From: Gracilariopsis chorda
Taxonomy: Eukaryota > Rhodophyta > Florideophyceae > Gracilariales > Gracilariaceae
Reading direction: 5' to 3'
Assembly (NCBI GenBank): GCA_003194525.1
Contig: NBIV01000011.1
Coordinates: 551,016 to 615,015, forward strand
DNA: 64,000 nt
In this document: piece after piece, positions 46,110-64,000 of the stretch
Layout of the letters: every line of letters begins with the position of its first letter
Position numbering within the stretch: the first letter of the stretch is position 1
Notes under the pieces: model-generated
Seen by the model: only the letters and a program-made list of their open reading frames with translations
Database searches by the model: none
Told to the model about the DNA's origin: nothing
Translations under genes and position numbers: made by a program

Positions 46110-48851
46110 GATGTACGTTACACTTCTGTCTTCAGAGATTGCCGCTGTTTGTAAAGTCAAACTAAACTACCAAGAAACCAAAACTGATCTTCCAAGGCTA
46201 TACCATAACTGTGGTAGAGTGCAACTCTCAAGCCTAAGAACAGCCCTGTAGACGCTAACCGACCCGATATGCAAAGTGCTCAGGTCCAAAGAACCCAAGG
46301 CTTTCACCTGGCAGGTCTTAGTGGAAAGGGCGGAACTGAACAGAGCATGTTTCTGTGGTTCCTGAAGGGCCATCTTGGTAGCAGTAGAGAACACAGGGAT
46401 GGCAAACAAAACAATAATAAAATAGGTTTCAATTGCAGCCAGTAGGAGAGCATTAACCACAACAATGCACGAAGTGGATTGTGAGTGTCATGTTGCACGA
46501 TTTCTCGACACCGGACGATGACAGTCCTCTTTGTGCCCATTTTTGCCGGAGAGCAAATTGGAAATAGATTCGTATCTCGAGAGTACCAGAGCTCGGGTGC
46601 AATGGCAGTAGATAGTAGACCGAAAACGATTAATAGCAACGTGAGCACTGCAGTGACAGGCGCAAGAAATGCCGAGCACCAACTACGGCAAGGCAGAAAT
46701 AGATGATAAAAGTCGCACACTCAGGACAGCGGCCTACTAGTAGCGCCAGAAAAAGGGGGAATGAAAACAGATGCGCGACCAAATCTTGAGGTCTGGCCCA
46801 AAAAAAATAAATACCTCTTCGCTGAAAACGTATAATCAAGACCTCAGTTTTAGTTCGTGACTTGAACCAACTGTGGGCGCCATCACGGGACGGTGACGCA
46901 GGGGGCCAAAACGTTGTACTAATAAAAGCCAAAAGGGTGCTCTTCGTAGCTAAAAGCCCCAAAACAAGTTAAAAACAGTGGGATCAAAAGAACTAAACCC
47001 ACTCGATGAAATAAAACAACACTAGGGAGAGCAAGAAGCTCAATCCCCAAATAAAACTTCTTAACTTCTTGTTGAAACGGCGCACAACCCAAGAATTATT
47101 TCAAAGATCACTAAGGGTCAGACCCTCGGCTTCCGGTGAGACACTCCGGATGTGAAGTGTATTCTGCAGCCTACCTACCTCTGCACTAACCAGAAGCAGG
47201 CGCATACAATCCTTACAGGGCTTCCCGAGGAGAGCTACTAACAGCAGGATATGCTTTCACTCTATACCCAAGCTGGCCCTTTGCAGGAAAGATTGCACGG
47301 CACGTCGCCTGCGGATAGCTTCCCGTCAAGTACTTCCGTCCGGAAATCACCAGGTCTTTCGACCGACACCATTATCAGACCAAAGCTCCGGTGGGGCTCA
47401 CAGACGACAGAAACACCTTTGGTACACACTACCCGTCTCCCGTCCACGCCTAAGGCGCTTCAACCGGTCTTAGCGACGGTAATTCCCCACCCTATTGGAC
47501 AACTAGCGGCACACGCCTCACTAGAAGCCCTGTATCCAGCGGCGAACGCCTCACTGGTTGTTGATGATAGTTGAAGTGGCTGAAGGTTGATAGGGGGTGG
47601 GGCTTAGATGTTGTTCGATTGTTGAGGTGAGTTCAGACCGAAGTCCGAAGCTCAGAACCTCTTTTTATAGTGTTTAGAGGCACTACAAACGAGCCAAATA
47701 CGCATTTCTACTTGCTAGTTACTCATGTGTGCGTCTAGGTTACTCCATTGGCTTCTATAGACCTCTGGAGCTGCACACTAACCAATAATAAAGCGACAAT
47801 TTGCGCCAGCATCACTAAAATACTGTAGTCTTTGCTGGGTCAACAAAGCGTGCAATGTGCTAGACACTACTGGAACATTCTACACGTGTGTTCCAGCAAT
47901 GTCTGGCACATTCCGCAACATTCGCGACCGACACCAACCTTAGTAACGTGCGTGACCAACACTTGGGGTCTGGCAAACGTTATGTGGTCGTGATTAGTAC
48001 ATCAGCTGTTCTTATACCGACTGAGACAGCCAAGTCACTGAAAATGTGCAAGAGATTAAGGTACACGTTTATGGAGATAAATTGGGCTAGAGTAGTGTTG
48101 GGGTAAGAAATAGCAGACATCTCTAAGAGAAGATGGTCTGTTCTATAAAAAGGTGAGGTGGTCCGGACCGAGTTAGCCTGTAGGCCACCTAACTTGTGCG
48201 TTTCTACACAATTGTTCCATATGCATAACGTCTAGTTCTTCATACTAGTTTTAAGCAAATCAACATAATAACCTGCCATAAGACACATTATTCTTATGAC
48301 GGACCACTTGGCAAAAGTTATTGGACCTCTTATGGTATTGTTTGTCTACATTATATCTTGTGAGGGCCCTGGATAGTTCTAGCAACATTGTTACACCCAT
48401 TTTACCATGTCAAATCCAGATGCAACAGCATTATTCGAGAGCTCCTAGACGATTCCAGCTTGGTGGGCCATTCGGTTCAGTACTGTAATTTTGTAGAGTT
48501 GGAAGCAGAAGAAGAGGATTCGTCATTGCTGTCACCCCCGTGGAACGCACAACCGGCAACGGTAAACGTCACGAATAGTGTTGAGGGTTTTGGATTTCCA
48601 TCGTCGTTACTGCGCGAACTAGGGGATATTTTACGCCTTGTTCTAGAAATTAGTTCAAGATAGAAGAATTTGTTACAATCCTGAATTATCTCATATCTCA
48701 AGCGCCCGACTTGTATGTGCCTGGTCTCATGCACGGGACGGTCTTCGCTTCAAACTACTAGTGTCTGCAAAACCTCACTTCTATCTATTCTCTTCTCCCT
48801 ATTATATACAAGCGTCTCAATAAGTAAAGATTCCTGCTTTTGCTTAACAAG
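46110..48851. other. Gene-poor region left of the retrotransposons
   Basis: 2.7 kb without a gene I can support. ORFs at 46304-46720 (minus), 47251-47574 (plus) and 48388-48663 (plus) lack domains. An 8-bp foldback (47870-47877 with 47889-47896) is present. The stretch 48,000-48,850 is AT-rich. It could contain old transposon debris, but no similarity to the neighbouring elements is visible. Confidence 0.4.
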
Positions 48852-49646
48852 TGTAGTGCAATGCCCGGAAGCGGGAACGCACCGAAAGACGTTCGGGATC
48901 TTTCCTCGTTAGAGGTGAGCCCAGTTGGGTAGAGCCCTCCCAGGAGTGGCACGACTATGTCCGGTTGTAAGGCCAAGGCCACCCGTCGCGACTTGCGCAG
49001 GGAGGTTGATGCAAGAATCGGGTATCCGCAAGAGCGGTGTATGGGTGTGTTCGTCCTCTAGAGAGGTTAGGTTTCCACGTTAGTGGCACGCGCGAACACG
49101 AGCCGTTGGTAGCGGGAAAGCCACCTTGTAAAGGGAAAAGTAAGGGGGAGCTGAGTCACGAGTGTCGTGACGAAGACTAACGGCAGTGCCGGTAAATAAA
49201 CCTTATACAGGCGAACACCAAGAAATCTGGAATAACAATCCGAATACTCGGGTCCTTTAGATAGGCCAGGGGGTTAGACTTCTCGTATGCAACGGAGCTT
49301 CCCTCCAAGCAGGAGTACAGAACACACGAAGGCGGTGAGGTCTAGAGCCGATTCCCCAGCTTGGGGTCCTTTTTTGGGGAAGTTTTACTGCTGCGACGGC
49401 AACCCGCCGGCGCACTAGGTACGAACCATCCCAGAAATGGGTGTAAAAATAATAAATAGAATTAACTAAATTACTCCACTTTGGTGGTTCATGCCCACTA
49501 CTATGGCCAACCGCCAATTGACTCTTCCCTGTCCCACGTGTCAAATCCACCATTAGTGGTGGTAGTTCATGCAATGACTATATTACCGAAACATTCGGGC
49601 AATCAAGCAAGTACCAAGAATCCCTCTCTGAGGGCATTGCACTTCA
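48852..49646 (-). repeat. 3' LTR of element 1 (LTR A)
   Basis: 795 bp from TGTAGTGCAA to TTGCACTTCA. These ends form near-perfect 10-bp terminal inverted repeats with TG..CA. It aligns along its whole length with LTR B at 54745-55552, with many substitutions. It contains a CACGTG G-box (49535-49540), an AT-rich box (49446-49470) and about twenty micro-hairpins. Confidence 0.85.
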
Positions 49647-49858
49647 TATCCTAATCCTTAGTAAGGAAGGCAACCGCAAACGCTGGCGAATCCCAGCGGA
49701 AAATAGGTGATAAAATTCCAAACCTCTCCGGGTCACCCTGTCAAGCCTCTCCCTCAGAGAAACAACCTCCTGCAAAAGCAGCGAACCAGCCTTCCACAAG
49801 TGCACGCTCCTCCTCTTCCTGCTCAACTCAGTCAGATCATGCCCTTTCGAAGGGGAAT

Positions 49859-51529
49859 ATGAACAACAACAACAACCAGCCTCTAAGACCGACTCCAGTC
49901 CGGAACTTCACGACCGGTTTCCGGTCGGTACCCCTGCCCCAAGGGAGGCCAACTCCGGCACAGCCGGCCAACATTGGCGCAGCGTCCCAGTATGGGTTCC
50001 AACTTCCACCAGTGGTGGCTCCTTCCGGACTGATCCCGGCGGCCACTTGGCCTTCTTATAACGCCCTTGTATGGTTTGATCTGATGAATCAGAGTCACGC
50101 CTCCCGGCTCCAGCTTGCGCCATGGTTCCATCCCATCGCTGCCCTCAACGAGGATTTAATTACGGCCTACGCGGATGGTTCCTGTACTTTTCCCGGGGAT
50201 CTACCCAGCCTCGTCACCTCGTCGTGGGACTGGCAGCATCGAATCGCCATCCCGGTGCCCCATATCCGAAGAAACTCGGGAGAATCCACGATTGCGGCTC
50301 ATGCAGCGCTGGTGCGGATTGCATATCAACGGCAGAGCCGGGCGCCTTTCGAATTCGTGGTGCCTACCGGCTTTGGCTTCGACGTCAGCCTATTCCGCAC
50401 GCGCGGTGAAATCGGTTATGGCGAACGCCTGGCCAGCCTCGAAACCCCCGCGTGGAGGAACTTTTCCGCTGCGCGGCAAGAAGCCCTGTGTTGGGAACGA
50501 CCGATACTTCGGGCTGAATTCCGGTACCTTTCCCGGCAGTTCCGATCCAACTTCCTCCAAAACTTCATCCGTTATGAACGGCGCTGGCGATCCCGATTCG
50601 GGTACTTTGTCCCGTATCAAAACGTGGAGATTGAGCGGATTGCTCCGCCTCACCGACAAGGCCGGTATGTCGCACTCCCCGAGTGGTGGAGGTTCCTTGA
50701 GGCCTGCCGGGGTTGCTAGGTTGAACTCCCGCCAGCACTCACGTACCTTGATTCCTTTTTGATTCAGGATCTCCGGTCGGGGCTTTGGGCGGTAATCGTA
50801 ACCGAGTGGGCTGCCCGCAGTGCGGCGTATATCCTCGCTGAGGTTTATGGCCAGTATCGACTGTGGTTCATCTAACCGCGTGTGCGGGCCGCTATTCGCA
50901 ATCTGGACCTCAGCGTCCCCCTTGGGGGTATTGCCTATAATGACGAAGTACTCCAATTACTTGGTTTGATCGACAGTATTGACTGGCGCGAGGTCCCGCT
51001 GGAACAGAGCGGTCAGATTGACGGCGGCGGTGGCGGTACCGGTGGTCCGGGTCTTGGTAGAAACACCGCCCTTGCGGGGGATTTCATCTACTTCGATCCC
51101 TGGGAGTTCCGGGAGATTTCCTCCCAGGAGGCAAGTGAACTCCGCGACACACCGCGGCACGTGCCGGACGACCACCCGATTGGGTACGTCGATTCCGACG
51201 ATTACTACCGCGCGTATAGCGGGGATGACCCGATGGTCGATAACGAACCCGAAGAGCCAGGGGACATGGAACTAGACGTTGGCGACATGGTCGTCGACGA
51301 ATCCCCCGAGGGGGTGCCTCCGGCTCCCAGTCCTCCGACGGCGAGCGCCGGGCCTTCACTCCCCAGCGGGGGTACAGTCAATGAAAGTGATATCATTGTC
51401 CGCTTCCTCCGCGGAGCGGGTTTAAGCACTGCCGAGGTTTCGGGTGACGTCACCGCGATGGCGGATGCCTTGGCTTACCGCGTAGTGGGTGGTCACGCCC
51501 CGGACGATGGGGAGGGGTCGAACCTTTAA
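49859..51529 (+). pseudogene. Opposite-strand retrotransposon ORF, element 1 copy (two in-frame stops)
   Basis: It aligns without frame disruption with the intact 595-aa ORF at 55610. Two point changes create stops: TAG at 50717-50719 (Tyr codon in element 2) and TAA at 50873-50875 (Gln in element 2). The start used is the ATG matching residue 37 of the element 2 ORF; the upstream ATG of element 2 reads ATA here. Otherwise the frame is open over 1.67 kb, with many conservative replacements. Confidence 0.8.
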
Positions 51530-51715
51530 TGTAGTATCTGGTCTCTTTCCCTGGCTTAGCCAGTAATGTAACCTAGCATCACACAGGAGCGCGAGGCTCC
51601 TGAGTGAACTTTCCCGTTTAGAACGGCGTTTTCTCTTTCATTCCCGTCCTTGACAGAGTCCATACAAAAGGGGGTGCACTCCCTCTTTCCTACCTTCCCC
51701 GGCTTCGCGGCGTTT

Positions 51716-54700
51716 TTATCCCACTTGGGCGTTGCACAGCGTAGCTGGGTTTGCGGTACCCGCGCTGCGGTGATATTGGACCACCTTCGAACGAGGGAGG
51801 TGTTCGATGGGTTCCATGGTGTCCCAGCTTGGGTCATATCCGTACCAACGGACGCGGTATCTTACAATGCCTTCCTGATTCCAGGTGTGCCCGACGATTA
51901 GGTCAATCACAAACTCTTGTTTGTATACCTGCCGGCCTTGCAGTGTTATGGTGACCTCGCTTGTCAGGGGTTGCCCGATGGACGGGACATTTCCCCTCAG
52001 GGGTGCGTCAGGATGCAACGTGCCGACTTCGCTCGGAGGATGCGGCGCAGAGTGCTGAATAATATCCCTCATGAGGGTGTCTTCGTGGAATGTTTTCCGC
52101 GTACCGCGATAACTGGGTCGTACCGCTAGTTTGCAGGGGTCCTCCATCCCATGTTGACGGTTGCCGCGTACCGCGGTAATTGGGTCGTACCGCTAGTTTG
52201 CGGGCGTCCTCCGCCCCATGTTGACGGTAGTCCGGTCGAACCGCGAGCTTGAAGGCATCTTGCCGCTTTGGCGGAGTTGTGTAGGTCACTCCCTGGTAAG
52301 GCTTTCCGCGTCGCGTGGTGATTGGTGTGGGGCGCACAATTTCCGTGCATTCACGTGACTCCCACGGCATGTGGCTCTGAACTGCCTCCTTGCGTACTGC
52401 CTCCCTTGGCTTGGGCTTTACACTGTTCGGCTGAGCCGTGCACTGCTGTGTTGGCACCCGGTATCCGGCGGTTACTTCCGGTGCTCCTGTGTGTTGCCTC
52501 AAACTCCCTGATGGGGCGTGGACAGCTGGCGCCGTGGACACCCTGGTTGGAGACTTTGCCTCTAATTGAGGTGTGATGTCTTCCTCAAGAGGTGCATCAT
52601 CCGGGACGACCGGTTTATCCATGGCGACGACGCCAAATTTTTCCGAGACGCTCGGTATATTACCGCGATTGCGCGGAGACTTCGGCACTTCTATCTCCGA
52701 AGTTCGGACAACATTCTCGTTATGAACGGTTCTCAAGTCCGGGGCTGTAGAGCCAGGGACTTGAGTTGCAAGATGTGCATTCCTGCCTTCCTCCCTCAAG
52801 ACGGTCTTTTCACTTTCCAGCGTTGCTGGTTTCCCAAGACGTGCGTTGCCTGCTACCAGCGGTGTGGATGGTGCTGAGGAATCCGTTTTGGCGGGAAATT
52901 CCGTCGACGACGGTTCTGCGACTACACCCTGGTGAGGGGTCTGCGAAACGATATCGCTATCCTGATTCAGGGAATTGCCGTGGTTCAGGGATACGGACTG
53001 CGATGTCGGTCCACTCTCCCGTATCATACGGTGTACCTGCGTCGTGCCGGAACCCTGTGTAGGGCATCGACCTTCCGTTTTTCACGGCTCAAATCCCGTT
53101 CCGACAGTAATAAATTTCCAGCGTGGCGATAGGTCCCCTCCCCCTCCTTAGACGGAGCAAGAGGTGTAATAGTAGGATATCCCGCATGGCGGGTGTAAAT
53201 GCGAGCCGAAGGGGCGGTAGTGTTAGGAGTAGAGAAAGGTCCGTTTGGACCTGAACGATCCGGCCGAGCCGGGGGTTCCGACAAAGTCGGTAAATCTGAG
53301 AGGCCCCGAGTAGGGTGTGGTAGAGTAGTCGGTCTATTTAGTCCAGGGGTTTCCAGCGTTGCTGATTCCCTAGAGACGGGTAGCCCTGTTTCCAGGACGA
53401 CCTCAGACGAGGGAGGAGGGGCAGGTACAACACGATCGCGGGAAATCCGCTCGTGTGCCTTGCCCATTTCCACTACGACAGTGTCGGAGTTAACGGATAC
53501 CACTTTAAACGGTCCATCCCCCACAGGCGAAATCTTGTGACGCTTCTCCCGTTCCGGGTTATAATATTCCTTACTTATAAAGACGTAGGTATTAGCCCGT
53601 ATGCGGGGAGCATTATCTCGTAAACGAGCGTCGAAATCCCGCATGTACGCGGCTTGCGCGCGTTCCATAAACTTTTGCGCTGCGGGGACCAGTTTAGTAA
53701 GCCATTGCTTCCATTCCTGGCGGTAGCGACCCACAGATGGGAAATTGTCCAAGGTGGCTTGGGATTCTAACGCCGTAGGCGGGGGTGGACGACATAGAAC
53801 CAATTCGAACGGTGACACCCCGGTAGTCCGGTGAAATTGTGTATTGTACGCAAATGTTAAAGCATATGCATACAAGTCCCAAGTTTTGGGGTGGTCAGCA
53901 ACGTAGGAATGGAGAGAGGCCAACAAAGTCCGGTTGAAGCGTTCGACTTGCCCATTACACTGGGGATGGTAGGTAGTCGTGAACAAGTTCTTCACGCCTA
54001 CGATGCGACAAACATCCTGGAAGAACTTGGACGCGAACTGCCGTCCGTTATTGGAGACCACCTTCACAGGAGGACCGTAGACAAAACTCCAGTGCATTAC
54101 CAGAGCCTGGGCCACCGTGAAATCGGTTATCCTCCGAAGAGAGACAGTCCGAACAAGCTTTGAAAAGCGATCGGTGATCACAAGTAAGAACTTGTTGCCT
54201 CTCTTTGTAGTGAGGAGAGGTGCGAGAATATCGATTGCGATAAACTCGAGTGGCGCCCTAGCACGGAATAACTTCATGTTCTTCGCGTTCCTGTGGAGCT
54301 TCACCCGGTTCTTCGAGCATTCGGTACAAAACGGCACAGTTGCGTAGCAATCAACCGCCATGGCGGGCCAGTAAAAAGCCCTTCGGAGGGTAAGGTAGAG
54401 CTTTCTCCCACCTACGTGGCCACCGAGCTTCGCACAGTGCGAGAAGATGTAACACCCGCAACTGCAGGGAATGAGGTAAAACAATCTGTGGGCGAGCTTA
54501 GACCAACCGGACGAGGTAGCCTTTATCGTTCACCTCGAACGGGAGGTCTTCGCCACCGTGTAAACGGGCACGAATCCTCATACAGAAGGGGTCACCGAGT
54601 TGTTCTCGGATCAATTCCTCCGGTGAAACCGGTACAAAACTTCCCGGTAAGGGGTTCTCAGTGGTCTCGTGGGATGCGAATAAGTTGTCAAAATCAGCAT

Positions 54701-54742
54701 CCTCATCCCAGTCTTCTGGCCATTCCTCGAACTTCCACTCCG
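51716..54742 (-). pseudogene. Element 1 pol fragment: integrase, linker and chromodomain
   Basis: From right to left on the minus strand: end of the RNase H/integrase connector (DWDEDADFDNLFAS), integrase zinc region (GGHVGGRKLYLTLRRAFYWP, FCTECSKNR) and catalytic core (EFIAIDILAPLL; TYHPQCNGQVERFNRTL). A long Pro/Ser-rich linker follows, then a chromodomain near 51.75-51.9 kb (VIDLIVGHTWNQEGIVRYRV, then YGYDPSWDTMEPIEHLP). The second catalytic Asp of integrase is Asn (SNNG for SDNG). The frame is broken between 52.0 and 53.03 kb and again near 52.15 kb and 54.49 kb. Confidence 0.85.
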
Positions 54743-54744
54743 GG

Positions 54745-55552
54745 TGTGGTGCAATGCCCCAAAGGGGAAAAACACCGAAAGACGTCCGGGATCTTCCTCT
54801 CACGAGGTGAACCCAGTTGGGTAGAGCCCTCCCAAAGGTGTCACGGCGAAGCCGGTTTGTAAGACCAGGGACACCTGTCGCGACTCGCGCAGGGAGGTGA
54901 AGGTGAAGAATCGGTATCCGCGTGAGCGGGGTGTGGTCCTCAGTAGAGGTATGTTTCCACGTAAGTGGGGGTGTGTGAGCGGATGCGCACACGAGGGCCG
55001 CGGATAGCGGGAGGTGCTACCCTAAAAAGGGGAAAGAGGACGGACGAAGTGGGTCGCGAGAGCGACGAGCAGATACGGCAATGCCGGTGGACAGGACTCC
55101 CTATACAGGGCGAAACACCAATATGATTGGAACAATTAGTACTCCCAATGATGGGTCTTCTTTAGATGTGCAAGGGGGGTGAACTTCCGTACACTACGGT
55201 GCTTCCCTCCAAGGAGGAGTTGAGAACACGCGGAGGCGGTAAAGCTCAGAGCCAATTTCCCAAGTTGGGGTCCCTTGTTGGGGAAGGTTTACTGGTGCGA
55301 CGGCAGTGCGCCGTCGCACTAAGTACTAGCTTCCCAGAAATGGGTGTGAAAATAATAAATAAAATTAACTAAAATACTCCACATTCCGTGGCAACATCCA
55401 CTACTGTGGCCAACCGCCAATTGACCCAAAACCGTGTCCCACGTGTCCATACCCACCATTGTGGGGCGTAGTTCATATACACACTACACAACCGATAATA
55501 TCGGGAAAGCGTTCAAGTACCCAGAATCCCTCCCTGAGGGCGTTGCACTTCA
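54745..55552 (-). repeat. 3' LTR of element 2 (LTR B)
   Basis: 808 bp from TGTGGTGCAA to TTGCACTTCA. It contains a CACGTG G-box (55440-55445), an AT-rich box (55349-55378) with TATA-like and AATAAA motifs in the plus direction, and many micro-hairpins at positions matching LTR A. Its left border abuts pol sequence of element 1 (5 bp CCGGG at 54740-54744 is the predicted target-site duplication). Confidence 0.87.
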
Positions 55553-55609
55553 TATCCCCCCCCTTAAGACGGGAAAGCGACCGCGGACGCGGAGGATTCC
55601 CAGACGAAA

Positions 55610-57397
55610 ATGGGTGATAAAAGCGCGTGCTTTGTCTCCGGTTCTCCCGTAAATCCCTCTGCACCAGAGTCATCAAGCACACAAACGACAACAACAGCCA
55701 CCCTCCAAAAGGGAAAAATGAACGACGACAACAATATCAACAACCACAGCCAACCGCCGAGACTTCTCGGGCGATACACCACCGGTTTCCGGTCAGTTCC
55801 CCTGCCTCAGGGCGATCGAAATCCGGTACAACCGGGGAATATGGCTGCGGCAGCCGACCATCCCTTCGCACTACCACCTTCGGTGGTGTCCTCCGGAACC
55901 ACTCCGGTGTCCAACTGGCCAACTTACAACACCCTGGTGGGGCTCAACCCGATGAATCGGAATCACGCGTCGCGCCTGCGCCTTGCCCCGTGGTTTCACC
56001 CGGTCGCCGTCCTCAATGAGGGATTGGTCACCGCTTATGCGGATGGTTCAGACACCCTTCCGGGGGATCTGCCCAGAGCAGTCACCACATCGTGGGATTG
56101 GCGTCACCGGATTGCGATTCCGCGTCACCACCTCCGAAGAAACTCGGGCGAGACCGTCACTGCGGCACAGACCGCGCTGACGCGCATGGCGTATCAACGG
56201 CAGAGCCGGGCTCCATTCGCTGTACCGGTCCCACCGGAGTTTGGCTTCGACGTTAGCTACTTCCGCACTCGCGGGGAGATTGGGTACGGCGAGAACCTGT
56301 TCCGCCTCGAGACCCTCGCTTGGAGGAATTTCCCCGCAGTGCGGCAAGAGGCCCTTTGCTGGGAGCGACCGATTATTCGGGCGGAGTTCAGGTACCTTCC
56401 CCGGCAATACCGGTCCAACTTTCTCCAAAACTTCATCCGCTACGAGCGGCGTTGGCGATCCCGATTTGGGTATTTTATCCCGTATCAGAACGTGGAGATA
56501 GAGCGGATTGCGCCGCCTCACCGACTAGGTCGGTATGTAGCACTCCCCGAGTGGTGGCGCTTCCATGAAGCCTGCCGGGGGTGCTACATAGAACTCCTGC
56601 CGGTACTTACGTACCTCGGTTCGCTGCTCATGCAGGATCCCCGGTCGGGGTTGTGGTCCGTAGTGGTTACGGAGTGGGCGGCCCGCAGTGCGGCTTATAT
56701 CCTCAACGAGGCGTACGACCAGTATCGTCTCTGGTTCCTTCAACCGCGTGTGCGGGCAGCGATCCGAAACCTGGATCTTCGCATCCCCCTTGGGGGCCAG
56801 GCCAACAATGAAGAGGTCCTCCAATTACTTGGGTACATCGACAGCGTTAGCTGGAGTGAGGTCCCGCTGGAGCAAAGCGGTCGTCTGGATGGCGGTAGCG
56901 GTAACACCGGTGGTCCGGGACTCGGTAGAAACACCGCCCTTGCGGGGGATTTTATCTACTTCGACCCCTGGGAGTTCCGGGAAATTTCCTCCGAGGAGGC
57001 GCGCGAGCTTCGCGATACGCCCCGGCATGTGCCGGAAGACCACCCGGTGGGGTACGTCGATTCCGACGACTACTACCGCGCATACGGCGGGGATGACCCA
57101 ATGGTCGATAACGAACCGGAAGAACCCGGGGAGATGGACGTAGAGGAAACCGGCGCTAGCGCGGAAGCTTTCCCAGAGGGGGCATCTCCGGCCGAGCCGG
57201 CTGCTGACCCTTCGGCGGCAAGTGCCGGACCTTCAATCCCCAGCGGGGTGATGGCGAATGAAAACGAAATCATCGCACGTTTCCTCCGGGGTGCCGGTCT
57301 TAGCGCTGCCGAGGTATCGGGGGATGTCACCACCATGGCGGACGCGTTGGCCTACCGCCACGCTGGTGGTTACGCCCCGGACGATGGGGGTGAGTGA
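55610..57397 (+). CDS. Opposite-strand retrotransposon ORF (595 aa), unknown function
   Basis: An intact ORF on the strand opposite to gag-pol, beginning 57 bp inside the 3' LTR and ending 190 bp before the pol stop, so the two genes converge without overlap. A second ATG at 55718 (residue 37) is the one conserved in element 1. The protein has a disordered N-terminus, then a Trp/Arg/Tyr-rich, apparently folded central region (~residues 75-400, e.g. NFIRYERRWRSRFGYFIPYQ, LPEWWRFHEACRGCYIELLP). A Gly-rich segment and an acidic Asp/Glu/Pro region follow (~455-540), then a C-terminal short helical domain (IARFLRGAGLSAAEVSGDV). No envelope, protease or known viral fold is recognisable, and no signal peptide or membrane helix. 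Transcription would need a plus-direction promoter in the LTR. Confidence 0.75.
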   Translation: MGDKSACFVSGSPVNPSAPESSSTQTTTTATLQKGKMNDDNNINNHSQPPRLLGRYTTGFRSVPLPQGDRNPVQPGNMAAAADHPFALPPSVVSSGTTPVSNWPTYNTLVGLNPMNRNHASRLRLAPWFHPVAVLNEGLVTAYADGSDTLPGDLPRAVTTSWDWRHRIAIPRHHLRRNSGETVTAAQTALTRMAYQRQSRAPFAVPVPPEFGFDVSYFRTRGEIGYGENLFRLETLAWRNFPAVRQEALCWERPIIRAEFRYLPRQYRSNFLQNFIRYERRWRSRFGYFIPYQNVEIERIAPPHRLGRYVALPEWWRFHEACRGCYIELLPVLTYLGSLLMQDPRSGLWSVVVTEWAARSAAYILNEAYDQYRLWFLQPRVRAAIRNLDLRIPLGGQANNEEVLQLLGYIDSVSWSEVPLEQSGRLDGGSGNTGGPGLGRNTALAGDFIYFDPWEFREISSEEARELRDTPRHVPEDHPVGYVDSDDYYRAYGGDDPMVDNEPEEPGEMDVEETGASAEAFPEGASPAEPAADPSAASAGPSIPSGVMANENEIIARFLRGAGLSAAEVSGDVTTMADALAYRHAGGYAPDDGGE

Positions 57398-57588
57398 AAC
57401 CTCTGGTCCAGTTTCCTGGTTCTTCTTTCCCTGGCTATGCCAGTTAGTGTAGTGTAGTATTGTGGGGAGCTAGCTGCTCCCCTGAATAAACTTTCCCGTT
57501 TAGAACGGTGCTTCTCGGTTGAGTTCCCCGTCTTCGACGGACTTTGCCTTGTTATCCTTTCCTTTCGCTCTCCGCTCGCGCGGCAACG
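57398..57588. other. Convergent gap between opposite-strand ORF and pol
   Basis: 190 bp with two strong hairpins: CCCGTTTAGAACGG (57496-57509) and CCGTCTTCGACGG (57529-57541). The first is exactly conserved in element 1. It may serve as a bidirectional 3'-end region (inference). Confidence 0.5.
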
Positions 57589-60500
57589 TTACCCAACTTG
57601 GGCATTAACCAGCGTGGCTGGGGCTGCAGTTCCCGTTTGACGGTGGTATCGCTCGACCTGCGACCGTGGGAGGTGTTCGATTGACTCCCACGTATCCCCA
57701 CTGGGGTCATACCCGTACCAGCGCACGCGGTATTGTAGAATACCATCCTGGTTCCAGGTGTGTCCGACAAATCGGTCTACTACGAACTCTCGTTCGTAGA
57801 CCTGCCGGCCGTGCCGGGTGGTGGTTGTACTCCCTTGCGAGGGCTGCCCGCTGTGCGGTATAATGTCCCTTAGCAGGGTGTTCGGCGATAACTCCGACGT
57901 TGCCGTGCGCTGTCCTAGTGGCCGCTGCTCATGCGGGAAAATATCCCTCAAGAGGGTGTGTGGTGTCACGGTTTTCCCCGGCAAGTCATTCCCCATTGGG
58001 GTGTCGTTGTTCCCGTCTTCACGGTAGGCCGGGCGAACCGCCAGTCGGCGGGGGACTTGGGCTCCGCCTTCGCGGTTGAGCTCACGAACCACGAGTTTGC
58101 GGGACGATGACCGCTCCTGCGGGATCGGCATTTCCACAATCCCCTGGGGGGTCCCGTGCGACACGGTGATTGGGTGGCAAACCGCCTCCCTGCCAGGCGC
58201 ACGAGCGCTCTGCACCATACGTTCCGGCGACGCCGTGGTGTCCCCGGCTACTGACGGGTTGCCTGGGGCTAACTCCGGTACACCGGTATTTTGGTCAAAA
58301 TTCCCCTTTGGGGGGTTCTGGGCAGGTGCCGATGACACCCTTTTCAGGGGAATTGCCGCTGAGCGCAGTGCACCATCTCCGTGAGGAGGAGCAGCGTCCG
58401 GTACGACCGGTTTCGAGCGTGCGATGGCGCGCGTTATTCCCGAGTTCCTCAGTTCTTCGCCGCAGCGATGCGGGGGTTGGCGCAAATTATTCCCCGTAGC
58501 GGGGGCTTTGATTCCGTCAACGACGGGAGGCGTTTCCGGTGCTTGCGAGCCAGGGCTTAAAGCTTCGACTGCAGCTTGGCCGCCTTTTTCCCCAAGAGGG
58601 GTGTGGGTATTCCCCTGTGAGGCCGGCGTATCTGGGCGCCCCTTCTCCGCAGGGCGCGGGTCTGATCGACCTGATTGAACCGCTTCCGCGGGGACTTCCG
58701 CCAATGGCGGCTTCGAGGCATCGGGCGATTGCCTTTCCGCTGCTGCGGTATTGGAGTGAGGCTTCTCGTTTTCCCGTGACAAACGGTGTATTTGCCGCTT
58801 TTGCGGGGCCTGCGCGTCTGGTTCCTGTTGCACAGCACTGCCCGGGAACGGGGGATTAGTGTCGCGTGACATACTCCGTGCTCCACGGTCAGTGTTCCGT
58901 ATGTTACGGTGTGTTTCCCGTTGCGACGGTGATATCGTTCCTCGAAAACGAGTGTTCTCCTCCCCCTCCTTAGACGGAGCGGCGGGATAAGGGATAACAT
59001 TCCCCGCCTGGCGGGTATAAATGCGCGCCAGTGGGGCAGACGTGGTAGGGGCGGGCGCTGAGGGGCCCGAATTACCCGGCTGAGCCGGTGATTCCGACAG
59101 AGTCGGTAGGTCTGAGAGTCCCCGGCTGGGGTTTGGTAGTACCGTAGGTCTAGTACTCCCGGATGGTTCCGGTGTTGCAGACTCCGTAGAAACGGGGTTG
59201 CCTGGATCCAGGACTACCTCTGACGAGGGAGGAGGGGCAAGGACAACACGATCACGGGAAATCCGTTCGTGCGTGTCGCCCATCTCTACCACGACAGTGT
59301 CGGTGTTAACAGAGATGACCTTGAGGGGTCCATCCGCTACAGGCGAGAGTTTGTGACGCTTCTCCCGTTCCGGGTTGTAGTACTCCTTCCTGATGAAGAC
59401 GTAGTTATTTGCCCGAATCGGGGGGGTCGTTCCTCGCAAGCGAGCGTCAAAATCCCGGTTGTAAGCGGCTTGGGCCCGTGCCATAGACTTCCGCGCAGCG
59501 GGGACCAGCTTGGAAAGCCATTGCTTCCATTGCTGCGGGTAGATACCCACAGATGGGAAATTGTCCAAGGTATCTTGGGGTTCCAGTGCCACAGGCGGGG
59601 GTGTTCTAGATAGAACCAACTCGAATGGCGAAACTCCGGTAGTCCGGTGTACCTGCGTATTGTACGCGTAGGTCACCGCATCAGCGTAGAGATCCCAATT
59701 CGTTGAGTGGTCAGCGACTTAGGAACGTAACGCCGAGAGTAACGTCCGGTTAAACCGTTCAACTTGCCCATTACACTGGGGGTGGTAGGTAGTCGTGAAC
59801 AAGTTCTTGACATCCAGGATGCGACAAACATCCTGGAAGAACTTGCTCACGAACTGCTTCCCGTTGTCAGAGAGCACCTCCACAGGGGGACCGTAGACAA
59901 AAATCCAGTGCGTCACCAGAGCCTGGGCCACCGTGAGAGCGGTTATCCTCCGAAGAGGGACAGTCCGTACCAGCTTAGAAAAGCGGTCGGTGATGACAAG
60001 TAGGAACTTGTTTCCACGTTTTGTGGTGAGTAGTGGTCCGAGAAGATCAATTGCGATAAACTCGAGTGGTGCCCTTGCGGGGAATAGTTTTATCTTCTTC
60101 GCATTTTTGCGGAGTTTGACGCGATTCTTCGCGCATTCGCTACAAAACTGCACAGTTGCGTAGCAATCCACCGCCATTGCGGGCCAATAGAAATCCCTTC
60201 GCAGGGTTAGGTAGAGTTTCCTCCCACCTGGGTGACCTCCAATGGGGGCGTAGTGTGATAGATGTAACACCCGCGATTGCAGGGAATGTGGTACCACAAT
60301 CTGTGGGCGGGCTTCGACCTTCCTTACGAGGTAGCCTTTGCCGTTTACCCCGAAAGGGAGATCTTCACCACCGTTGATACGGGCACGAGTTCTCGTACAG
60401 AATGGGTCGCCGAATTGTTCTCGGATCATTTCTTCCGGTGATACCGGTACAAAGTTTCCCGGTAACGGGTTCTCAGATTTATCTCGCGATGCGAGTAGTT

Positions 60501-63152
60501 CGTCAAAATCAGCATCCTCGTCCCAGGTTTCTGGCCTAGCCTTGACGGCATATTCCGGATCATCCGGGTCTATAGACATGAAACATGGGACTTCATCATC
60601 CTCCGTTGGGAGTGCTTCCCCACTTGTGGGTAACCGCGACAAAGCGTCGGCCTGGGTGTTCTGCGCACCCTTTTTATAAATGACTTGAAAGTCATATTCC
60701 GCGAGGCGGAGTCTCCAGTGCATGAGACGTCCCGACGGGTCGGAGATATTCATCAACCACCTCAATGAGGAATGATCCGTGTACACGGTGAAGTGAATTC
60801 CCATAAGGTAGGGGCGCAGAGTGGTCATCGCCCATACGACGGCGAGGCACTCTTTCTCCGATACGGAGTAGTTCCGCTCATGAACATTGAGCGAGCGCGA
60901 CCAATAACCAATTGGATTTCGTTCCCCCTCGGGGGTGGTTTGAAAAAGAGCACACCCGACTTGGTAGTCGCTCGAGTCCGTATCTACGGAGTATGGCAAC
61001 CCAAGTTTTGAGAGATGTAGGATTGGTGCTGATGTGACAGCCTCCTTTAAGGAGTTGAAGGCTTCCGATTGCTCGGGCGTAAATATTCCCAGTTTTGGGG
61101 GGTTCCCCTTTCGCAACAACGCGTTCAGGGGCGCTGCAGTATCCGAAAAGTTCGGGATAAACCGTCGATAGACGTTGACCAGCCCCAGAAAGGAGCGCAG
61201 TTCCGTTTGAGTACGGGGTTCTTTCGCCTCAACGAGGGATTTGACTCGAGCTTTCTCGATCGCTAACCGTCCAGGACGGATAATGTGACCCAGATACTTC
61301 CCAGTGTCTGTGAAAAACTCGCATTTCCTCAACTTGAGGGCAATTCCCGCATCGCGGAGTACGGTGAGCACGTCTCGGACGTGAGTGAGATGATCGTCCA
61401 ACGAGTTGGAGAAGATGATGATATCATCAAGGTAGACCAGACAACTCCGCCACTTAAAGCGGTTGAGTAGAATATCTACTGCACGCTGAAAGGTGGCGGG
61501 GGCGTTGGCTAACCCAAATGGCATCCGCTTGAAGCGGTACGTTCCTGCATGGCAAGTGAATGCGGTTTTGTCGCGATCCTCCTGTCTGACAGGTACTTGC
61601 CAATATCCTCAATTGGCATCAAGGGCCGTGAACACGGTGGCGTCTCCAAGGGAGTCAATGCACTCGTCCATACGAGGGATGGGGTACGTGTCCCTAACAT
61701 TCACGGCATTGAGCCGGCGGTAGTCGACACAGAACCTCCAGGTTCCGTCGGCCTTTAAAGCCAGTACAACTGGGGATGCCCAGGGTGATTGAGCGGGCTC
61801 AATCACACCTGCGCGGAGCATCTTGTCCACCTGGGACTGCTCCTCTTCCCGAGCTTTCGGACCTGCCCTGTAAGGGGGTTGTGCAACCGGTCGCGCACCG
61901 GGGATTAAATCGATCCGGTGTTCCGTTGCATCAATCTCGCCAAGCGAGCCATCCCACATTGTGGTGAATTCCCGTAACATAGTACGTAGTTTGTCGCGGT
62001 GCGACTCTGGCACGTGGCTGAAGTCCAGCGCTTCAAGTGCTTTTTCCGGATCAATCCGGTCATTGCTCGATGGAGCATTGTCCTGTGGAACAGGTGTGGT
62101 TCGCAATTCCGAGTTACTCGGTATGTTCGACGCTGAAGTAGCGGTTTCCTCCCCCTCCTTAGACTTGACGTCTTCGGACGGCGGTGCGAACTCCTCAGAA
62201 GAGGTGGTAACTCCGAGTACATCGGCGGCTGTCATCTTCGTTGGCAGCATTCCCATAGGATGGGGGGTGACACTCCCAATTACTTGGTGTTTGACCAGAT
62301 ACTGGGGGTGTTTGCCAAGGTTGGCAATCAATATCCGGAAAGGGACATCCGGGGAAATGGAGACAATTCCATTAGCCTGCGCCAGCTGGGATTTCTCGTA
62401 CAACGAGGCGAGGGGTTGTATAACCCGAAGACCGTGTTGACGGGAATATACCTGCACCCAGACTTGGGACTCAGCCGGTATAGAAACCGAGGCAGCGACG
62501 CGGAGCTTGGTGGACTCGCGGGACGCGGGCGGTGGTTCCTGTGCAGCAGGGAGCGGACCTTGTTTCCCAGAGGACCGCTTTAGCGGGCGGCGAACAATCC
62601 GAACCGACGATCCGTCGTCAAGTTCTACACGCCTGAGGCGGGGCCTGATTGCGTCGACAAATCTGTCGCAGTAATCACATCCCAGTATGACTGGTGCTGC
62701 CAATGAACGGCAAACGATGAAGTCCAACTTCACCACAGAGGTACCAAGTCTCACGACGAGGTCCACTGTGCCCACCGTTTGTAACGGATTGTTGTTCGCA
62801 TCCGAAATGTCGGGGACCGCGTCAGAGCGGATACGCGACCGCACAAGCGGGAGGTAACAATGATTCCACAACAAAGTTGGGGCCTGCACCTGTATCCAGG
62901 GACGGTGAGAAACCTCACCATAAACTGGGGGTCAAGGCCAAGGTCGGCATAGACCTTATAATTGCGCTTGGCCAAGACCAAGACTCTACCGGGAATCCGG
63001 GGATTTTTACTCCGTATCCACGGGCGACGCAACACACCGAGGTGCACAGAGTCCGCGTCAGCGGTGTCTTTCCTCGAGAGGACTTTCACCGGGGAGCGAG
63101 GCGAGGACGCCTCGGGCGCCAACAGCCTCGTTCTTGAGGACGCCTCTCCCAA
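57589..63152 (-). pseudogene. Element 2 pol: protease, reverse transcriptase, RNase H, integrase, linker, chromodomain
   Basis: Minus strand, right to left. Aspartic protease with DTGAGPNF near 62.9 kb is in one frame; its continuation (SDANNNPLQTVGTVDLVVRL, VILGCDYCDRFVDAI) is in another, implying a one-base indel near 62.87 kb. Reverse transcriptase has FCVDYRRLNAVN and YLDDIIIFSN. RNase H has DTDSSDYQVGCALFQ. Integrase has GGHPGGRKLYL, CSECAKNR, AIDLLGPLL, LSDNGKQF and NGQVERFNRTL. A disordered linker of roughly 450 residues leads to the C-terminal chromodomain (VVDRFVGHTWNQDGILQYRV, then DTWESIEHLP). Two in-frame stops interrupt it: TGA at 61606-61608 (Ser expected) and TAA near 59716 (Tyr expected). 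All catalytic residues seen are intact. Confidence 0.9.
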
Positions 63153-63169
63153 AGGGGAGACTCCCTCAG

Positions 63170-63982
63170 TTAGTTTTCCGCCTTCGGCGGTGGGTTGGTT
63201 TCCTCGACAACGAGTGCTTCATCCCGTTGACGGGGGTTTCTATCCGCATAAGCGGGGGTTGCAACGGATGGTTGCGTGATCTCCCGAATCGGGGTGTATG
63301 AAGCTTGCCGCGCACGCGGGGTCTGTGGTAGGGCGTGGGAAAAGTCCGTTTTAGCACGGAGGTAGGAAGCCGTCAGGACGGAACGTTTCTCCTCTGGAGT
63401 GAGGGCCTCATAATTTGCCACCACCTTGGCCATATCCTTCAGTGAACAAATACACTGAGGAGAGGTATGGCCATGGGCATAGCACAGGTGGCAAATGAGA
63501 GATAGCACCGCGACACGCGGATTATTATTCCGAGTATCGGAGAAGCGAACCGCAGGGCGGGTGTCAGTCCATCCAGGCCGTTGATAACGGATTGACCGTT
63601 TTGAAAACGGGAGTCGTTGGGGTTGAACCCGACTGTTTACCACCGTATAGAACGGGATTCTTCTGTTCCCGTATCATGGGTCATCTCCGTCGTTGACGGT
63701 AACTCACTGGTGGGTATCGACACACCATCCCCCTGCGCTAAATGCACGGTATCAAATCCCTGTCCAGGGTTCCCATCCGCGGTGAGCGGGAGAGAGGAAG
63801 CTTCGCTTTCCAGCAAACAACGCCTTGGCGGATTTAGACCGATTGTTCGGAGTTTCTTGCACGAAGTGCATCCCCTTCCGCTCGAGCGTGTTGGACCAGC
63901 TCGAGGTAGGTGATCTTCGCTTGTTCTCCCGATAACGGGTAACTAAACTCCGGATTGCCGGGTCAAGACCATCAATGAACAT
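63170..63982 (-). pseudogene. Element 2 gag C-terminal part with CCHC zinc knuckle (broken, partial)
   Basis: Two minus-strand frames. 63982-63752 encodes a capsid C-terminal segment (MFIDGLDPAIRSLVTRYREN). After a break, 63643-63170 carries a CX2CX4HX4C zinc knuckle (CHLCYAHGHTSPQC) followed by a Pro/Arg-rich nucleocapsid tail ending close to the protease. The start of gag is to the right of the window. The frame change at about 63.65-63.75 kb may be a mutation or the gag internal decay. Confidence 0.7.
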
Positions 63983-64000
63983 GGTACTGCGCTCCCCAGC

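Follow-up and report, generated by a model that had tools for sequence, protein, structure and literature searches.

Two adjoining LTR retrotransposons share a hairpin array

We analyzed a window of 64,000 nucleotides from the red alga Gracilariopsis chorda (contig C11, positions 551016-615015; the assembly comprises 91.3 Mb in 1081 contigs). An isopentenyl-diphosphate isomerase gene in the window shares 68% identity with one from Agarophyton chilense and 64% with one from Gracilaria domingensis, in keeping with a red algal host close to the Gracilariales. The part of the window from 48852 to 64000 is occupied by two related long terminal repeat (LTR) retrotransposons, both with gag-pol on the minus strand. 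Element 1 spans 48852-54743 and stops where element 2 starts, and element 2 runs from 54744 to the contig end. Both carry a dense array of very short hairpins of narrow geometry, the subject of this study.

Element 2 has the domain order of Ty3/gypsy chromoviruses, with RVT_1, RT_RNaseH, Integrase_H2C2 and rve on the minus strand and a chromodomain located downstream of the integrase core. A 3' LTR and a polypurine tract are present, while the position of the 5' LTR falls past the contig end. Another genomic locus, L032, matches the element-2 LTR at 90.5%, with the match ending at 55554. Pfam searches of two further open reading frames (ORFs), at 61609-62889 and 63170-63643, gave no match; the latter would be the C-terminal part of Gag, the remainder of which falls outside the window. 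Over ~4.2 kb, the copy of element 2 in the window (54744-64000) is 1.9-2.9% divergent from 29 other copies, and those 29 differ from one another by 0-3.1% (median 1.3%). In element 1, a 67-bp unit stands in two tandem copies (90%) at 52094-52227, in the chromodomain-side region. The coordinates of all features are collected in Table 1.

The hairpins have a fixed foot and a narrow span

We defined a micro-hairpin as CC-NN..loop..NN-GG with four base pairs and a total span of 11-13 nt. The stretch 48852-64000 holds 270 of them, versus 23.7 ± 5.8 expected from local dinucleotide shuffles (maximum 41 in 200), and the remaining 48.9 kb of the window shows no excess (27 versus 24.2). Perfect stems of at least 5 bp with loops of 1-6 nt gave a similar picture: 240 versus 85.5 ± 8.3 in the elements by the same kind of shuffle (z 18.7), and 217 versus 241.6 in 1-48851. 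A first-pass annotation of this DNA had reported dense hairpins in the elements and none of this pattern in the surrounding host genes. Both statements hold, the former more strongly than it was made, and the 12 hairpin sequences it quoted are all present where it placed them.

The geometry is narrow. Observed over expected counts are 116/48.7, 170/48.7 and 153/48.5 at total spans of 11, 12 and 13 nt, i.e., 2.4-, 3.5- and 3.2-fold enrichment, compared with about 1.5-fold at 14 and 15 nt and none at 10 nt. At spans of 10-14 nt, the CC..GG foot occurs 274 times versus 27.4 expected, a ten-fold excess. Since the pair immediately outside CC/GG is Watson-Crick at just 22 of the 270 sites, the stem mostly stops at this foot. 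The inner pairs are arbitrary yet complementary (at span 12, the third pair is Watson-Crick in 157 of 257 cases), additional complementary bases in the loop occur at about chance level, and a search for a fixed loop motif among the micro-hairpins found none. We read span 11 as 4 bp with a 3-nt loop, span 12 as 4 bp with a 4-nt loop, and span 13 mostly as 5 bp with a 3-nt loop. Stems of at least 7 bp are scarce (11 versus 4.8 expected). The range of 4-9 bp stems with 1-5 nt loops given at first pass thus described a real excess too broadly, as it consists mainly of 4-5 bp stems with loops of 3-4 nt.

On average there is one micro-hairpin per ~60 nt, and coding sequence, non-coding sequence and LTRs are populated at similar density. 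Each part of element 2 carries 14-24 per kb, and those of element 1 carry 12-16 per kb. A 9-bp LTR stem noted earlier, together with its one-mismatch counterpart, is also real, though of another type; kept in both elements (55296-55318 and 49392-49414), it could be an LTR signal. An Rfam search of 48000-64000 returned 0 matches at the gathering score.

Table 1 Features of the two retrotransposons and selected hairpins (window coordinates)
Feature	Positions	Strand	Basis or remark	Micro-hairpins
Element 1 3' LTR, right end approximate	48852..49646	-	Alignment to element-2 LTR	13 (non-overlapping, CC..GG)
Micro-hairpin CCCG-GAAG-CGGG	48864..48875		Partner CCCC-AAA-GGGG at 54757-54767, different in both arms and in loop length
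Micro-hairpin CCGA..TCGG	49240..49251		Partner 55144-55155, CCCA..TGGG; both arms differ
Additional antisense ORF region of element 1, lacking a single open frame	49859..51547	+		23
Element 1 integrase and chromodomain region	52008..54743	-		33
Element 2 3' LTR, TG..CA	54745..55552	-	Sequence	19 (23.5 per kb)
9-bp LTR hairpin, distinct type	55296..55318		Element-1 counterpart 49392-49414, one mismatch
Polypurine tract adjoining element-2 3' LTR (plus-strand C-run)	55553..55563	-	Direct sequence reading
Additional 595-aa ORF of element 2, antisense, lying between pol and 3' LTR	55610..57397	+		32
Element 2 ORF downstream of integrase core, with chromodomain	57589..59676	-	PF00385, E 2.2e-9	46 (22 per kb)
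Element 2 reverse transcriptase (RT) - RNase H - integrase ORF	59719..61524	-	PF00078, PF17917, PF17921, PF00665	26
Element 2 ORF upstream of RT ORF; putative protease and first RT part	61609..62889	-	Assigned by position and by eye	20
ORF with CX2CX4HX4C zinc-knuckle motif, putative C-terminal part of Gag	63170..63643	-	Motif read by eye

The array is independent of protein coding and composition

We also shuffled synonymous codons, which preserves both the protein and its codon usage. In element 2, the antisense ORF holds 35 micro-hairpins versus 6.5 expected, the chromodomain ORF 49 versus 8.4, the RT-integrase ORF 28 versus 4.1, the upstream pol ORF 21 versus 3.4 and the gag ORF 10 versus 0.8; three ORFs of element 1 gave 10 versus 1.6, 18 versus 2.6 and 13 versus 2.5. 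In the dinucleotide- and codon-preserving controls that had been suggested as a check, no shuffle reached the observed counts. The micro-hairpins show no clear preference for a reading frame. CC and GG are abundant in both elements, as chance or composition would have it, and the excess is nevertheless not reproduced by dinucleotide, synonymous-codon or codon-order shuffles. An assembly artefact is opposed by at least 39 other places in the genome at 98% identity over a 1241-base stretch, and by another copy, L002, with the same excess (75 versus 4.2). Taken together, we give chance, base composition, codon use or faulty assembly a negligible probability.

Hairpin codons do not fall at more variable protein positions when compared with three gypsy relatives: identity is 46/101 in hairpins versus 191/394 elsewhere for L064, 45/96 versus 179/375 for L067, and 37/126 versus 134/440 for L062. 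Against L048 they are less conserved (27/126 versus 160/473, p 0.009). An origin of the hairpins driven by the protein was likewise tested and found no support.

Stems are conserved between the elements

Between elements 1 and 2, stems diverge by 16-18%, loops by 38% and other sequence by 30% (p about 1e-16 for stems versus other sequence, 0.002-0.008 for loops). An element-1 site overlaps 63 of the 113 element-2 sites, compared with a mean of 17.0 under circular shifts (maximum 27 of 145), in agreement with the earlier statement that the hairpins sit at the same places in both copies; among these 63, 17 differ in register or in length. Where inner pairs are altered on both sides, 17 of 24 are still Watson-Crick, versus 205 of 532 control pairs (p 0.002). 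A second count, which is not independent of the first, yielded 16 of 27 versus 147 of 422 controls (p 0.013). One pair proposed as homologous in the chromodomain tail (53019-53031 and 58897-58909) was not confirmed as such: in our alignment, which is weak in this stretch, the element-1 hairpin faces a different element-2 hairpin.

Copy variation points to selection rather than renewal

Two explanations had been offered for this conservation, namely selection and renewal of the structure. We compared fixed and polymorphic differences in a McDonald-Kreitman-type test on ~1.5 kb of the integrase region in 26 copies: 18 of the element-1 type (the 8 best matches and 10 chosen among the more divergent entries in a list of 40) and 8 of the 30 element-2 copies. 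Taking the hairpins from element 2 or from element 1, fixed over polymorphic counts were 12/194 and 7/183 in stems, and 203/1060 and 206/1071 outside. This corresponds to ratios of 0.062 and 0.038 for stems, 0.25 and 0.29 for loops and 0.19 outside, with stem odds ratios of 0.32 (p 4e-5) and 0.20 (p 4e-7). The deficit persists at third codon positions alone (0.36, p 0.007; 0.28, p 0.001) and at C/G positions alone (0.30, p 3e-4; 0.12, p 8e-7).

Among the 30 element-2 copies, singletons occur at 0.110 in stems, 0.092 in loops and 0.108 at other sites, and all variants at 0.124, 0.112 and 0.140, respectively. Within the element-1 group, variation in stems is no lower than at other sites (0.65 versus 0.57 singletons per position). 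Stems are thus variable among copies but conserved between subfamilies, which points to purifying selection on the structure in propagating lineages rather than to hairpins being rebuilt by mutation. We read this as stems that would decay freely in dead copies and be protected while a lineage propagates.

Renewal, in which template switching by the reverse transcriptase would perfect imperfect hairpins, could account for the paired changes and shifted registers seen between the elements. It fits poorly with variants striking stems, loops and other sites at similar rates in the 30 element-2 copies, with stems being the slowest class between subfamilies yet at least as variable as other sites among copies, and with the fixed bases being located at the foot and not beside the loop. 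We regard it as very improbable. From the earlier pairing of selection and renewal, selection is supported by the copy variation and the fixed-to-polymorphic test, and ongoing renewal is not.

The array is restricted to one clade among the sampled loci

The hairpin-bearing families are multi-copy, with 1029 and 1084 first-look candidates, of which 40 each were scored. Eight 6-kb stretches were also counted; they are arbitrary places on contigs known from the copy search, not a random draw. Four show no clear excess (L031, 3 versus 3.6; L036, 3 versus 1.6; L037, 5 versus 2.3; L038, 1 versus 1.9). L032 (20 versus 2.9) and L033 (6 versus 1.9) hold LTR pieces resembling elements 1 and 2. L034 (31 versus 4.7) and L035 (17 versus 5.7) have an excess with no DNA match to the window. 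L035 encodes a pol with 53.6% identity over 375 aa and an antisense ORF with 32% identity. L034 is one unit of an array with a period of 5047 bp; its chromodomain match is weak (E about 1e-3), and no pol match was found at E 0.01. It is possibly a non-autonomous relative. Its commonest flank pair is A..A (11/31) on the chromodomain-match strand, which corresponds to T..T on the plus strand of the window. The array containing it (C19:285863-313093) gave six consecutive matches at 98-100%, with micro-hairpins present. The attribution of the array to both elements of the window was thus right and understated, given the multi-copy families and the degraded relatives in L034 and L035.

Other retrotransposons sampled lack a clear excess. 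Eight Copia loci (L039-L046), several of which are probably copies of one family (L041-L046 look alike), contain 1 site versus ~13 expected in sum, fewer than the shuffles. Five of six gypsy loci from an H2C2 search sum to 1 versus ~5, while L049, the sixth, reaches 27 owing to an adjoining LTR and internal part of the element-2 type. Seven 2-kb gypsy pieces (L062-L068) sum to 11 versus ~12, the highest being L067 (5 versus 2.5); L064 and L067 each have a pol with 46% identity. Among the sampled loci, the hairpin array is therefore restricted to one chromodomain Ty3/gypsy clade, and, judged from this sampling of loci, it looks like a derived trait of that clade. No relative turned up when viral contigs were scanned with the RT-integrase protein. 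One element-2-type copy, L061 (C65:235000-239500), seemingly misses the antisense ORF and adjoins another gypsy family; its LTR is followed by sequence resembling the chromodomain-side spacer.

The 595-aa antisense ORF (55610-57397, plus strand) has no significant Pfam match, and its predicted structure is of low confidence (mean pLDDT 38). Relatives were found in Gracilariopsis chorda (50%), in Gracilaria domingensis (47%) and in three further sequences, as well as in two other gypsy loci of the genome, where identity is 32-33%. A link between this ORF and the hairpins was considered and rejected: both occur in L035, yet in the C555 family (L064, L082) an antisense relative of the ORF (33% over 94 aa) is present and hairpins are not in excess (3 versus 2.0 and 2 versus 2.4). 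The antisense ORF is thus not sufficient for hairpins. The same family bears on the idea that the sites are palindromes in double-stranded DNA, bound by a dimeric protein such as the antisense-ORF product. Fixed CC..GG outer half-sites at 11-13 bp and a conserved antisense ORF would suit such a protein. Besides this gypsy relative with the ORF and no excess, the inner bases speak against it, being arbitrary but complementary: by a rough estimate, the 157 Watson-Crick pairs in 257 are about twice the base-frequency expectation. Palindrome binding is in our view improbable.

A possible role as marks on the genomic RNA

We tentatively propose, at somewhat less than even confidence, that the array is kept by selection and works in cis. 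Its hairpins would be repeated marks of low specificity on the genomic RNA, read by the coat that the element itself encodes (Gag or nucleocapsid), so that the RNA would be recognized, packaged or condensed over its full length in the manner of the dispersed packaging signals of some RNA viruses. Gag or nucleocapsid as the binding partner is a guess, made as the most economical choice. The similar density everywhere, the fixed foot with free arms and loops, the short stems and the selection on them during propagation suggest, as a whole, numerous equivalent marks of low affinity for a single partner. More speculatively, the array might be a distributed structural code, in which hundreds of interchangeable micro-hairpins, each with a fixed foot and arbitrary complementary arms and placed in coding and regulatory sequence without distinction, tell the nucleic acid of the element from that of the host. 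Packaging signals of retroelements are usually described as localised; a code of this kind, if true, would be a self-recognition system without a single packaging site.

Sense RNA is our preference for the acting molecule, next to single-stranded DNA and the other strand as possible alternatives. On the gag-pol strand, loops are rich in A and poor in G (0.32 and 0.17, versus 0.23 and 0.26 in linkers), and the base just 3' of the stem is A in 0.51 of cases. The predicted stem probability is 0.462 for the sense and 0.379 for the antisense strand, a difference of 0.082 ± 0.025 over 246 sites; the sign is the same in six of six data sets, and the difference exceeds two standard errors in element 2 only. 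With DNA folding parameters, the strand difference is 0.015 ± 0.012.

Several observations weigh against the proposed role. The native flanks give the sense hairpin only a small advantage over shuffled ones (0.039 ± 0.023), and folding in 110 nt of sense context predicts formation for about half of the stems (48% at P over 0.5). Spacing is consistent with random placement (coefficient of variation 0.77 versus 0.77 ± 0.08 in L002; L008, L019 and L023 were omitted for gaps), so the regular spacing looked for was not found and a coat lattice is not visible. The changes on both arms reported at first pass, which stay paired above controls in the comparison of the two elements, do not extend to the integrase region; there, with the commonest states compared, neither set of stem pairs (0 of 96; 0 of 92) included one altered on both arms and still paired. 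Wobble pairs, finally, lean to the other strand. At pairs 3-4 outside the 75 perfect sites of L002, TG, which is a wobble on the plus strand opposite gag-pol, occurs 8 times versus 1.2 expected and GT 0 versus 1.3, beside 2 AC and 3 CA versus 1.2 each (5 versus 2.4 together). Over the whole window, T..G at pair 4 numbers 24 versus 5.6, and with linkers only, TG and GT total 25 versus 11.3 and AC and CA 22 versus 10.0. Wobble pairs are few overall; their lean to the plus strand lowers the sense-RNA reading and raises that of single-stranded DNA.

The hairpins may instead act in single-stranded DNA, as reverse-transcription cDNA or cruciforms, bound by integrase, nucleocapsid or a host protein. 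The plus strand of the window corresponds to the first, minus-strand cDNA, to which the few wobble pairs beside the 75 perfect sites lean, and the motif folds on both strands, with stem formation of 0.64 and 0.63 under DNA parameters. The A-rich, G-poor unpaired context on the gag-pol strand and the preference of RNA folding for that strand tell against it, and we consider this explanation unlikely, though one to be taken seriously. Slightly less likely, we think, is shielding, whereby the hairpins would limit the access of RNA silencing or nucleases to the genomic RNA or mRNA with no specific partner. Shielding has been proposed for genome-scale ordered RNA structure in viruses, and it is in keeping with similar density over all parts, with stems that are short only and with random spacing. 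A shield, however, could do without a fixed CC/GG foot, a fixed span or a ceiling on stem length, and all three are observed.

Whichever molecule they act in, a selected, element-wide array of micro-hairpins offers a direct way to ask by what means a retroelement labels the RNA or cDNA that is its own. Natural controls are at hand within one genome, in many copies and in gypsy relatives without clear excess, one of which has a relative of the antisense ORF.

Comparison with known systems

The first-pass annotation knew of no described retroelement class with this feature, and we likewise found no description of such a hairpin array in any retroelement in the literature searched, a partial coverage that misses most subscription journals. 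In its RT, RNase H, H2C2 and integrase core, its downstream-ORF chromodomain and its 3' LTR with polypurine tract, the algal element resembles Ty3/gypsy chromoviruses; it is unlike them in the hairpin array and in the large antisense ORF that separates pol from the 3' LTR. RNA viruses with genome-scale ordered RNA structure likewise have structure throughout the genome that exceeds the expectation from composition and codons. In contrast to theirs, the algal hairpins are discrete, of 4-5 bp with a fixed foot and span, and show no preference for longer stems.

The plant Retand, Grande and RIRE2 elements are described as having antisense ORFs located between pol and 3' LTR (PMC11963269), and the algal antisense ORF occupies the same place. 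Retand belongs to a non-chromovirus lineage and its antisense ORFs mostly have a TRP28 domain, whereas the algal ORF has no significant Pfam match; 'hairpin' and 'secondary structure' have 0 occurrences in the main text of that paper.

The nearest described idea is the packaging-signal-mediated assembly of RNA viruses (PMC6281560). Dispersed RNA packaging signals are described for RNA viruses, with STNV, parechovirus and MS2 as examples, and for the pregenomic RNA of hepatitis B. Like these, the algal array consists of many short, degenerate stem-loops that are dispersed along the genomic RNA and share a recognition feature, and its stems appear to be conserved by selection. Unlike them, it reaches about one hairpin per 60 nt with a narrow geometry, holds its shared feature at the foot of the stem and not in the loop, and resides in a retrotransposon. 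Should Gag prove to be the partner, LTR retrotransposons would join the systems with dispersed packaging signals, and would have them in an unusually dense and regular form.

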